49,000 nt of DNA from Fimbriimonadia bacterium (GTDB taxonomy: Bacteria > Armatimonadota > Fimbriimonadia > Fimbriimonadales > JABRVX01). Positions 36,129 to 42,657 of the stretch are shown here, piece by piece; within the stretch, counting starts at the first letter, position 1, and each line of letters opens with the position of its first letter. The stretch covers positions 1 through 49,000 of the forward strand of contig JABRVX010000064.1 in assembly GCA_039961735.1 (NCBI GenBank). The letters are read 5' to 3'. Position numbers and translations under genes: made by a program. The notes below the pieces were generated by a model. The model searched no databases. It saw only the letters and a list, made by a program, of their open reading frames with translations, and had not been told where the DNA came from.

Positions 36129-36265
36129 CTGCGCCTCCCGACCCGGTGATTCTAGCATTCGCTCTCGCCAAACCGGCAAAGCACGATATTAGCCTCGTGC
36201 CAAGAAAGGGCATACGATCTGTGCAAGTATGTACTTGCGGCTGTTCGGGAAAGGAGCACGAGCCC

Positions 36266-37630
36266 TTGCAGAACTCGCAGCGAGCCGAAGTTCAGGTTTC
36301 TACCCGTGTGGACCCCAAGCTGGTGCTTACCAGCACCCTCTTGCAGATGACCCAGGTCGAGCTGGAGCAGGCCGTCGAGGCGGAGCTGGCCGAAAACCCT
36401 GCTCTGGAGGTTATGGAGCAAGAGCAGGAGCCCCTCGACGAGGACACCATCGCCGACCAGTTGCTGCTGCGGGCGGGGGCGCGCTACTCCTTCGCGGAGG
36501 ATACCGTCCCGACCAAGCCCTACGACCCCGACGACAGCCAGGACTGGACGGACTTCGTCGTGGCCCCGGTGTCGCTGGCGGATCACCTCCGCGCTCAGCT
36601 CCTTCCCATGCTTCCAGAGCGGCTCCACGCACTTGGCGCGAACGTCGTGGATGCGGTCAACGACCGCGGCTATTTGGACATGCAGGTGGAAGAACTGGCG
36701 CTTAGCTTCGACGCTACTATGGAAGACGTCGAGGAGGTGCTGGAGAAGCTGCAGCAGTGTGAGCCGGCTGGAGTGGGGGCCAGGGACCTTCGCGAGTGCC
36801 TGCTGATCCAGCTCAGGCAGATGCCCTCGGAGCCGGTCCGCGACCTCGCCTTGCACATGGTCGCCGACTGCTGGGAGGAATTCACCAAACAACGCTACTC
36901 CCGGATCGGTCGGCGCTATGGGGCGCGCCCCTTCGTGGTTCAGGCCGCCGCATCTATGGTCGCGCACCTCAACCCGTTTCCCGGCGAGGCGTTTCGAGCC
37001 GAGTGGGACCACTTCTCGCCGTCGCCTGCACCGAGTGTGACGCCCGACGTCGTCATCCGCCGGACCGACAACGGCTATGAGGTGGAGATACGCGGGTTCG
37101 ATCCCTCCGCCTTGACCATCAATGAGCGCTATCGCCGCCTCCACCAGCAACGGGACCGCCTGTCCAGTGACGAGCGTTCGCACGTGGTGCAGTATGTGGA
37201 CCGCGCCCAGAACTTCATCGCGAGCATTCAGCAGCGCCGTCGCACGGTGCGTCGTATCGTGGACTATCTGCTGCAGACGCAATCCGGGTTCATCGCCACC
37301 GGCTCGTATCGCTTCCTGCGCCCACTCACACGCATGCAACTTGCCCGTGAGATCGGCGTGCACGAAAGCACGGTCTCACGCGCCACGATGGGGAAGTTCG
37401 TGCAGCTCCCAAGCCAGGAAGTGGTGCCTTTCGAAGTATTCTTCAAGCCCGCGCTCCGTGTGCAGAAGGCAATCGAAGAGATTCTCAGGCACGAAAACCC
37501 AGGTTGCCCTCTCAGCGACGAACGCATCTCCAAGATGTTAAAAGAGCAGGGTATCGAGGTCGCTCGTAGAACTATCAACAAGTACCGCGAGCGGCTGAAC
37601 ATCCTGTCCAGCCGGCGCAGGCGCGCATAA
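36266..37630 (+). CDS. rpoN: RNA polymerase sigma-54 factor
   Basis: 454 residues from TTG 36266, with AAGGAG 9 bases upstream; the open frame before it does not look like RpoN. Region I (LLQMTQVELEQAVEAELAENPALEV) binds activators. The core-binding domain (about 95-290) and a helix-turn-helix (LAREIGVHESTVSRA) follow. The RpoN box reads ARRTINKYRERLNI, close to the canonical ARRTVAKYRE. No enhancer-binding protein and no clear -24/-12 promoter are in the window, so its targets (pili are a common one) are unknown. Confidence 0.95.
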   Translation: MQNSQRAEVQVSTRVDPKLVLTSTLLQMTQVELEQAVEAELAENPALEVMEQEQEPLDEDTIADQLLLRAGARYSFAEDTVPTKPYDPDDSQDWTDFVVAPVSLADHLRAQLLPMLPERLHALGANVVDAVNDRGYLDMQVEELALSFDATMEDVEEVLEKLQQCEPAGVGARDLRECLLIQLRQMPSEPVRDLALHMVADCWEEFTKQRYSRIGRRYGARPFVVQAAASMVAHLNPFPGEAFRAEWDHFSPSPAPSVTPDVVIRRTDNGYEVEIRGFDPSALTINERYRRLHQQRDRLSSDERSHVVQYVDRAQNFIASIQQRRRTVRRIVDYLLQTQSGFIATGSYRFLRPLTRMQLAREIGVHESTVSRATMGKFVQLPSQEVVPFEVFFKPALRVQKAIEEILRHENPGCPLSDERISKMLKEQGIEVARRTINKYRERLNILSSRRRRA

Positions 37631-40069: not shown

Positions 40070-41356
40070 TTAAGCAGCCTGATGCAATGCGGTGTCGTGC
40101 CTGTCTGCCGAGCGCAAGGCGGCGGCGAGGAGTTCTCGAAGGGTCGAGCCATCGTCTGGGAAGTCCGCACAGCCCACGTAGAATCCGACCTGGCCCTTCG
40201 CGGAGAAGAGGCGGTTAATCCACTCGGCCAGCTTCTCCTCGAGGAGGTCACCAATATCCACGCGCAGTCGGTCCACGTGAGGCAGAACCACCCCGAACGC
40301 GAACTCATCTGCGCGACAGAGCACGTCGAGCTTACGGATGTTGGCTCGGATGACGGACCCAGCTTGGGTGAGGAACTCCCCAACCGTCATATCCCCATAG
40401 AAACTGCGTAGTTGCTCTAGACCGTGGAAGCGCACGATAATCACCGACATCTTGGACCCGTCGAGCGACGCACGCTGGATCTCCTCGGATAACCGCGAAC
40501 GGAAGTAATCGGGTCCGTAGAGACCGGTCTGGTCATCCATCACGTCGCTCTCACAGTCGGGCGCATAACGTATACGCAGTTGACGATCCTTGATGTCCTC
40601 GGTGACCAGTATCTTCCGCAGTTTCTGGACGGAGTGCCTTAGGATGTGTGATACGTAGTTGCAAGAGATGTCGAGCGTGGCGGCGATTTCCGTTTGGTTG
40701 AGACCGTCATAGAAAAAGAGATGGATCACCTTCTGCTCCACCTCTTTGAGGTGAATCACGGCGGTTTCGAGGATCATCTTGTCCTCGATGGGAAGCTGGA
40801 ACGTAGCCTCTTCCTGAGACTCCATCTTGTCCAGGTCGTAAGGTTTGTCGCCGTCGTCTTCCTCGGTCGCACCGTCAATCGAGAGCACCTTGAACACGTC
40901 CCGCGTCATCAGCACCTCGGTGATCGCCTCTTCGGTCATGCGCATGTTCGCAGCGATCTCTGCGGCCGTGGGCTGACGTCCCAACTCCTGCGCGAGAGAC
41001 TGGGTGATACGGTTGATCCGCTGGTTCAGTTCCTGCAGCCATGCCGGCTCCTTGATGATCTTCCCCTTGTCACGCAAGTGGTGTTTGATCTCCCCTGCGA
41101 CTAAGTGTGTTGCGTAGGTGGAGAACTTGACCCCCTTGCTAGGGTCGAACAGCTCCAGTGCGTTGAGTAGGCCGATGAAACCGACCTGCGCCAGGTCCTC
41201 GATCGGTTCCGATGACCCCGCGAAGCGGCGCGCGATGCGTTCTACCATCCCGGCGTAGTGCAGGGTCACGGCGTCCCTCAGGTCGGGCTCCTTAGTCCGT
41301 GAATACAGCGCTACCATTTCTTCAGGCTCCAGCCTGATTCGAGCGCAATCTCCCAA
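40070..41356 (-). CDS. Sigma-70 family factor fused to a degenerate GGDEF domain
   Basis: 428 residues from TTG 41356, with AGGAGG 9 bases upstream. Sigma regions 2-4 occupy about 20-255: EDLAQVGFIGLLNALELFDPSKG, FSTYATHLVAGEIKHHLRDKG (2.4/3), then DGLNQTEIAATLDIS helix-turn-helix (4.2). The arrangement is that of SigB/SigF/SigG (group 3). Residues 274-428 are a GGDEF fold: DDQTGLYGPDYF start, VGFYVGCADFPDDGSTLRELLAAAL end. The active site is ruined: the metal/substrate stretch usually DxDxFKxIND reads RFHGLEQLRS, and the signature is RADEF with a two-residue gap. RKLD (341-344) matches the RxxD inhibitory c-di-GMP site. It may sense c-di-GMP rather than make it. pilC is 89 bases upstream on the same strand. 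Confidence 0.9.
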   Translation of the reverse strand: MGDCARIRLEPEEMVALYSRTKEPDLRDAVTLHYAGMVERIARRFAGSSEPIEDLAQVGFIGLLNALELFDPSKGVKFSTYATHLVAGEIKHHLRDKGKIIKEPAWLQELNQRINRITQSLAQELGRQPTAAEIAANMRMTEEAITEVLMTRDVFKVLSIDGATEEDDGDKPYDLDKMESQEEATFQLPIEDKMILETAVIHLKEVEQKVIHLFFYDGLNQTEIAATLDISCNYVSHILRHSVQKLRKILVTEDIKDRQLRIRYAPDCESDVMDDQTGLYGPDYFRSRLSEEIQRASLDGSKMSVIIVRFHGLEQLRSFYGDMTVGEFLTQAGSVIRANIRKLDVLCRADEFAFGVVLPHVDRLRVDIGDLLEEKLAEWINRLFSAKGQVGFYVGCADFPDDGSTLRELLAAALRSADRHDTALHQAA

Positions 41357-41445: not shown

Positions 41446-42657
41446 CTATTGAACCGAGTTGACCAGCTTGAAGATAGGTGTCATCACCGAGATAGCGATG
41501 AAGCCGACAATGCCACCCATGAACACGATGAGTAACGGCTCGATCATCGAGGTGAGACCTTTGACGGCTTGCGATACCTCGGTATCATAGAAGTCCGATA
41601 CTTTGATCAACATCTCGTTGAGACGCCCGCTTTCTTCACCGACGTCTATCATCTGAGTAACCATGGCAGGGAAAAGCCCGCTAGCAGCGAGTGGTGCACT
41701 CAGTTGCTTGCCCTCACGGATGCTTCCTCGTGCCACTTCGATCGCACCTGCGAGAACCGCGTTGCCAGTGGTCTCGCCGACGATCTCCAGTGAGCGCATC
41801 ATCGGGACGCCACTGGCGATGAGCGTGCCGAACGTCCTTGCGAATCTCGCGAGGGACATCTTGAGGCTCAGTTCGCCTACGATGGGCATGCGGAGCTTAA
41901 GGTAGTCGAACTGGTAGCGCCCTCTCTGCGTTCGCCCATAGAACTTCATCGCCACGAACATGCCAATCCCTGCGCCTATGATCACCCACCAGAACGCCTT
42001 CATGAAATCACCCATGGCGAACAACGCAGCGGTGACAGCTGGCAACTCTACGTCCATACCGGCGAAGATGTCCTTGAACTTAGGCAGCACGAAGCTGAAC
42101 AGCGCGAACAACATCACGCCGGATGCTATCAGTACCATCACCGGATACATCATGGCGGACTTGATCTTGGTGCGGATCTCCATCTCCGACTCGAGGAACT
42201 GTGCAAGCCTGTCCAAGATGGTGTCTAGGATGCCTCCCACCTCGGCAGCGCGGATCATGTTGACGTACAGGCGGTTGAACACCATTGGGTGCTTCGCCAT
42301 CGCCTCGTTCAGTGACTGACCGCCCTTCACGTCTGCGCGTACCTGGTTGAGGGAATCGCGTAGAGCCGGATCCTTCATCTGCCCTGCTAGGATATCGAGG
42401 CAGCGGAGAATGGGGATGCCTGCGTCAATCATGGTGGCGAACTGACGCGAAAAGATCACGAGCGACGTTAGTTTGGGCTTCTTTGGCTTTAGGAGGGCGC
42501 TGCGGGCGCCCGCTCCACCTCTTACCAGCTTGACGCTGGTCACATGCATCTGCTGCTCGTGCAGACGGCTTAGGACTAGCTCCTCCGAGTCGGCTTCGAT
42601 TACGCCTCGGACGTTGCGTCCTGCGGGGTCCACCGCGCTATAGGCAAAGCGTGGCAT
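41446..42657 (-). CDS. pilC: Type IV pilus/type II secretion inner-membrane protein PilC (GspF)
   Basis: 403 residues with two T2SSF domains (about 68-190 and 272-393) and three membrane helices, one near 168-190, one near 215-240 and one at the end. FSRQFATMIDAGIPILRCL and FARTFGTLIASGVPMMRSL are the repeated family motif, each followed by the GE(T/E)SG-type block (AAEVGGILD; VGEESGRLNEML). It is the platform protein for pilus assembly ATPases. PilB, PilT and pilins are not in the window. GGGAGG lies before the ATG. Confidence 0.95.
   Translation of the reverse strand: MPRFAYSAVDPAGRNVRGVIEADSEELVLSRLHEQQMHVTSVKLVRGGAGARSALLKPKKPKLTSLVIFSRQFATMIDAGIPILRCLDILAGQMKDPALRDSLNQVRADVKGGQSLNEAMAKHPMVFNRLYVNMIRAAEVGGILDTILDRLAQFLESEMEIRTKIKSAMMYPVMVLIASGVMLFALFSFVLPKFKDIFAGMDVELPAVTAALFAMGDFMKAFWWVIIGAGIGMFVAMKFYGRTQRGRYQFDYLKLRMPIVGELSLKMSLARFARTFGTLIASGVPMMRSLEIVGETTGNAVLAGAIEVARGSIREGKQLSAPLAASGLFPAMVTQMIDVGEESGRLNEMLIKVSDFYDTEVSQAVKGLTSMIEPLLIVFMGGIVGFIAISVMTPIFKLVNSVQ

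Follow-up and report, generated by a model that had tools for sequence, protein, structure and literature searches.

A sigma factor fused to a degenerate GGDEF domain in Armatimonadota, a candidate one-protein link between c-di-GMP and transcription

The window, the whole stretch of DNA analysed here (49,000 nucleotides from a Fimbriimonadia bacterium, contig JABRVX010000064.1, positions 1 to 49,000), carries on its reverse strand a gene in which a sigma factor and a GGDEF domain are joined in a single polypeptide (Table 1). The sequence GGAGGA lies a few bases ahead of the TTG codon assigned as its start, and the N-termini of related proteins agree with this assignment. The gene upstream, named as pilC in an earlier note on this DNA, is confirmed as such by a match to T2SSF over the positions tabulated. 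The gene for sigma-54, rpoN, is located at 36146-37630 (+), ~2.4 kb from the sigma-GGDEF gene and on the opposite strand.

Table 1. Positions in the window of the sigma-GGDEF gene, its parts and the adjacent pilC
Feature	Position	Strand	Details
sigma-GGDEF fusion gene	40070..41356	-	TTG start 41356, TAA stop 40070-40072, 428 aa
Sigma part, ~residues 11-248	40613..41326	-	SigB/SigF/SigG-like (Pfam, NCBIfam, AF2 model)
Sigma regions			Region 2, residues 33-99; region 3, 109-183; region 4, 202-248
Degenerate GGDEF domain, residues 273-413	40118..40540	-	PF00990, 60.1 bits (cut-off 23.8)
R295, secondary I-site arginine	40472..40474	-	Equivalent to PleD R313; kept in 126/127 relatives
Primary I-site motif R341-K-L-D344	40325..40336	-	Equivalent to PleD R359/D362; R and D in 128/128 relatives
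L371 (CTC) in the window copy	40244..40246	-	Arg in relatives, equivalent to PleD R390 and PelD R402
C-terminal Ala-Ala, candidate ClpXP degron	40073..40078	-	AA in 117/129 relatives
pilC (type II/IV inner-membrane platform, T2SSF)	41446..42657	-	89 bases upstream of the sigma-GGDEF gene, same strand

Sigma-70 regions 2, 3 and 4 are matched in order and above the Pfam cut-offs (70, 49.9 and 42.1 bits, respectively) and are followed in the same frame by PF00990, the arrangement that the earlier note had read from the translation. The top NCBIfam match of the sigma part is TIGR02980 (SigB/SigF/SigG), at 198 bits and so under its 234-bit cut-off; SigB/SigF/SigG is the nearest sigma subfamily, yet the protein lies outside the curated bound of that model. 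In an AF2 model of the full-length protein (mean pLDDT 86, pTM 0.45) the domains are confident and their mutual placement is uncertain. The sigma part mostly exceeds a pLDDT of 90, except for the loop 157-184, and an unbroken helix extends from region 4 (residue 232) to residue 264. The GGDEF domain modelled alone has a pTM of 0.82, and a VIA-align comparison of residues 267-424 of the model with diguanylate cyclases, PleD and WspR among them, gives Z scores of ~20-21.

The fold is retained, whereas the residues for metal and substrate are replaced, as the earlier note had stated. R309, R317 and DEFAF occupy the positions of D327, N335 and GGEEF in PleD, the letters and numbering of which agree with the profile alignments. 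By spacing and profile alignment, R295, R309, R341, D344 and position 371 correspond to PleD R313, D327, R359, D362 and R390. The segment CRADEFAFGVVLP of the window protein aligns without gaps to the PleD segment CRYGGEEFVVIMP, which has equal length, and this places DEFAF at GGEEF. The description of the signature as RADEF with a two-residue gap was thus a misreading, and the likeness of RADEF to a shortened GGDEF is due to chance. Alignments of 128 relatives from many families reveal that the catalytic positions vary freely; the domain is degenerate in all of them, and GG(D/E)EF is absent from every aligned relative. Judged by these alignments, the catalytic residues are lost throughout the family. 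A working diguanylate cyclase under the control of sigma binding would have the GGDEF fold itself (PF00990, VIA-align) in its favour, but with these replacements, and with no aligned relative retaining the signature, such an activity is very improbable.

Full-length sigma-GGDEF relatives are present in ~189 of the 291 Armatimonadota genomes, some being counted by score alone and not by inspection of the sequence. The class, represented by 113 genomes, contributes 97 of them, and the rest of the phylum about 90. The count is 189 rather than 195, as matches at E 1e-60 alone overstated the number of fusions; family f17 and some others have the sigma part only. A search for this architecture across genomes had been proposed as a check, together with the caution that a sequencing frameshift might have joined two genes. 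The identical full-length frame in this many genomes refutes that origin, and the chance that the fusion reflects a frameshift or an assembly error is practically nil; the fusion is real and old. A tree of 66 members groups them largely by family, as vertical descent of the protein would give. The named records that contain the protein are from Fimbriimonadales and other Armatimonadota; other phyla were covered by a single contig scan with family-specific patterns, which leaves room for unrelated sigma-GGDEF fusions there.

In family f17 (L276, L277, L278), a close relative of the sigma part ends soon after region 4 and has no GGDEF domain, and these genomes hold only one or two GGDEF proteins. 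In L082 (G047:C1:2834308-2835294), an in-frame TGA ends the frame within the GGDEF domain, consistent with a pseudogene or a sequence error. The copies L238 (G110), L085 (G031) and L086/L088 (genus g30) are fast-evolving and form long branches. From the g30 copies, R371 and the Ala-Ala end have both disappeared, and their genomes, of 1.5 Mb, have one other GGDEF protein.

The motif RKLD had been assigned to the RxxD inhibitory site (I-site), and residues 341-344 do fall at the position of PleD R359xxD362. The alignment of this site in homologues, also suggested as a check, finds R341 and D344 in every sequence, and in a 61-member alignment E291, R341 and D344 are the sole invariant columns of the GGDEF half. 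The earlier note made no mention of the retention of R295, the loss of R371 in the window copy, the C-terminal Ala-Ala or the phylum-wide range. In PleD, R390 joins the primary I-site and R313 forms the secondary I-site (PMC8041772), and in PelD the equivalents of R341, D344 and R371 (R367, D370 and R402) are required for c-di-GMP binding (PMC2170427). R371 is kept in 122 of 127 relatives, the exceptions being the window copy, L058, L080, L086 and L088. With Leu at this position the window protein may bind c-di-GMP more weakly than its relatives and so is not the best member of the family for testing. Part of the RxxD conservation could be structural, because active GGDEF domains frequently carry the motif too (25 of 31 intact domains of the order). 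From the conservation as a whole we infer that the GGDEF domain binds c-di-GMP.

To relate the protein to c-di-GMP signalling, GGDEF domains were counted in the same 291 genomes, of which a near-complete subset comprised 147 with and 58 without sigma-GGDEF. None of the 147 is devoid of other GGDEF proteins, as compared with 11 of the 58 (Fisher P 4e-7, uncorrected for ancestry), and the median numbers of GGDEF proteins are 7 and 2, respectively. In families f3, f10, f12, f13, f32 and f35, the genomes without any other GGDEF protein are also without sigma-GGDEF, a pattern that favours repeated joint loss. Dependence in the opposite direction is not strict, as G037 (11), G178 and G186 (9) have many GGDEF proteins but no sigma-GGDEF. 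On comparative grounds the co-loss points strongly to a tie between sigma-GGDEF and c-di-GMP signalling. The genome of the window itself encodes five other GGDEF proteins with GG(D/E)EF, four of which also have RxxD, and two PilZ proteins.

Some near-complete genomes have no GGDEF domain at all, namely G012, G041 and G043 (genus g3), G140-G142 (g67), G167 (g84), G221 (g119), G236 and G237. These genomes are 2.1-6.1 Mb in size, and some belong to genera in which relatives hold ~ten GGDEF domains, an apparent case of repeated loss of c-di-GMP synthesis.

The Ala-Ala end is conserved in most relatives, and four more end in Val-Ala, whereas the residues preceding the end are not conserved. Other genes end in Ala-Ala in 1.8% of cases at the same loci (12/666) and 2.1% in the window's own genome (7/329), as counted with a simple gene caller in 449 kb of the contigs of the window assembly and the flanks of the relatives. 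Of the tmRNA tags of the phylum, 12 were examined and every one terminates in AA, one tag being ANSYAYAA, and ClpX is present. The Ala-Ala end is missing from families f29, f36-f38, f44, f22 and f18 and from the small-genome genus g30. CtrA of Caulobacter ends in NAA (PMC8138137), and the resemblance of the sigma-GGDEF terminus to this and to the SsrA tag of the lineage suggests a ClpXP degron; turnover by ClpXP is proposed. Among the other c-di-GMP proteins encoded in the window's own genome, L091 and L092 (GGDEF) and L097 (PilZ) also end in Ala-Ala, with the termini SAAA, TEAA and QAAA.

In 56 of 66 informative loci, pilC precedes the sigma gene by no more than 600 bases, often with pilB/pilT-like genes ahead of it. 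The ten loci without pilC are mostly from records labelled Chthonomonadales or plain Armatimonadetes/bacterium, probably outside the class. Genomes that lack sigma-GGDEF retain T2SSF genes and pilus gene clusters, and any role in pilus formation would therefore be regulatory and not essential. A promoter scan for gapped 4-mer pairs in 60 non-redundant regions upstream of the pilC-sigma operon found none above shuffled controls, and it is therefore only gene order that perhaps points to pilus control by sigma-GGDEF. Of the earlier suggestion that pilus genes are the target, the linkage to pilC stands, being conserved in the class, and a dependence of pilus genes on the protein is weakened by their persistence where it has been lost.

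These observations are probably best explained by a one-protein, c-di-GMP-responsive sigma factor, with c-di-GMP binding to the GGDEF domain and altering sigma activity or lifetime as the best supported reading of the sequences. The one-protein switch put forward in the earlier note is strengthened in this respect by the conserved fusion, the dead active site, the kept I-site and the co-loss with GGDEF proteins, its pilus component being the part that is weakened. Incapable of synthesis, the GGDEF domain would bind c-di-GMP through R341, D344 and R371 of its I-site and R295 of a partner domain, a site arranged as the Ip/Is of PleD, and the ligand would thereby cross-link two GGDEF domains. Cross-linking would change the way in which RNA polymerase is contacted by sigma region 4, which a single unbroken helix connects to the GGDEF domain, and the Ala-Ala end would allow ClpXP to remove the protein. 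The ligand-bound protein would be the off or degradable state, and a fall in c-di-GMP would free the sigma factor for its regulon, perhaps including type IV pilus genes. That the bound form is the inactive one appears the likelier direction by analogy with WhiG/RsiG, and we say so with low confidence.

It is alternatively possible, if a little short of an even chance, that c-di-GMP controls stability rather than activity, the GGDEF domain presenting or hiding the Ala-Ala end in the manner of PopA such that the destruction of the sigma factor by ClpXP would depend on c-di-GMP. The excess of this terminus over the ~2% background, the variability of the residues before it, the tmRNA tags and the presence of ClpX all favour such control, as does the precedent of CtrA, which with its NAA end is handed to ClpXP with the degenerate GGDEF receptor PopA (PMC12564702, PMC8138137). 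The I-site is, however, kept in the seven families named above that have no Ala-Ala end, so the two features are separable, and the absence of that end from g30 also weighs against it; proteolysis may, moreover, accompany allosteric control instead of replacing it. Degenerate GGDEF domains can also serve as scaffolds, and here the domain might be a mere protein-protein interaction or dimerisation module, for an anti-sigma factor for example, with RxxD kept for folding, as its frequency in intact GGDEF domains would allow. We regard this as unlikely, given that R341 and D344 are invariant and occur together with R295 and R371, the residues of the ligand site in PleD and PelD, and given the co-loss with other GGDEF proteins. 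Returning to the c-di-GMP-responsive sigma factor, its fullest form, in which ligand binding decides both sigma activity and a ClpXP-driven lifetime, with receptor, transcription factor and degron in one chain throughout the phylum, is offered tentatively, as conceivable but on balance doubtful.

A search of the open-access literature, with most subscription journals outside its scope, for GGDEF and sigma factor with Armatimonadetes or Armatimonadota returned no joint description; PMC9239204 mentions both domains, and the passages located in it describe no such fusion. The parts are known singly, and the open papers searched yielded no report of them combined in a single polypeptide throughout a phylum. 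Where c-di-GMP was seen to act on a sigma factor, a separate protein is the intermediary, RsiG in the case of WhiG, and a sigma factor with its own receptor would, if the proposal is correct, be the shortest known path from c-di-GMP to promoter choice. The phylum in which the protein is conserved has hardly any genetics, and the protein is small and defined, with named residues open to mutation. Natural controls are at hand in the genomes without the whole system, in the f17 sigma factor without a GGDEF domain, and in members that differ in whether they have R371 or the Ala-Ala end.

Among known systems, SigB/SigF/SigG sigma factors share regions 2, 3 and 4 with the window protein, but their chain stops after region 4 and they are controlled by the anti-sigma kinases RsbW/SpoIIAB. 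WhiG-RsiG of Streptomyces and Rubrobacter likewise places a sigma factor of the FliA/WhiG-SigB group under c-di-GMP control, and control of type IV pili by this switch is reported for Rubrobacter (PMC8325347); there, however, the ligand is sandwiched between the sigma factor and the coiled coil of a distinct anti-sigma protein, whereas here the GGDEF domain is within the sigma polypeptide. PelD of Pseudomonas is also a degenerate GGDEF receptor with its binding residues at the positions of R341, D344 and R371 (PMC2170427), but regulates polysaccharide export, is not a transcription factor and has a third residue that the window copy lacks. By analogy, the nearest functional parallel is PopA of Caulobacter, a c-di-GMP effector whose degenerate GGDEF domain has kept RxxD; it is associated with the breakdown by ClpXP of a transcription regulator that has Ala-Ala at its C-terminus (PMC12564702, PMC8138137). 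PopA is, however, a separate adaptor with receiver domains, whereas in sigma-GGDEF the putative receptor, the transcription factor and a possible degron lie on one chain.
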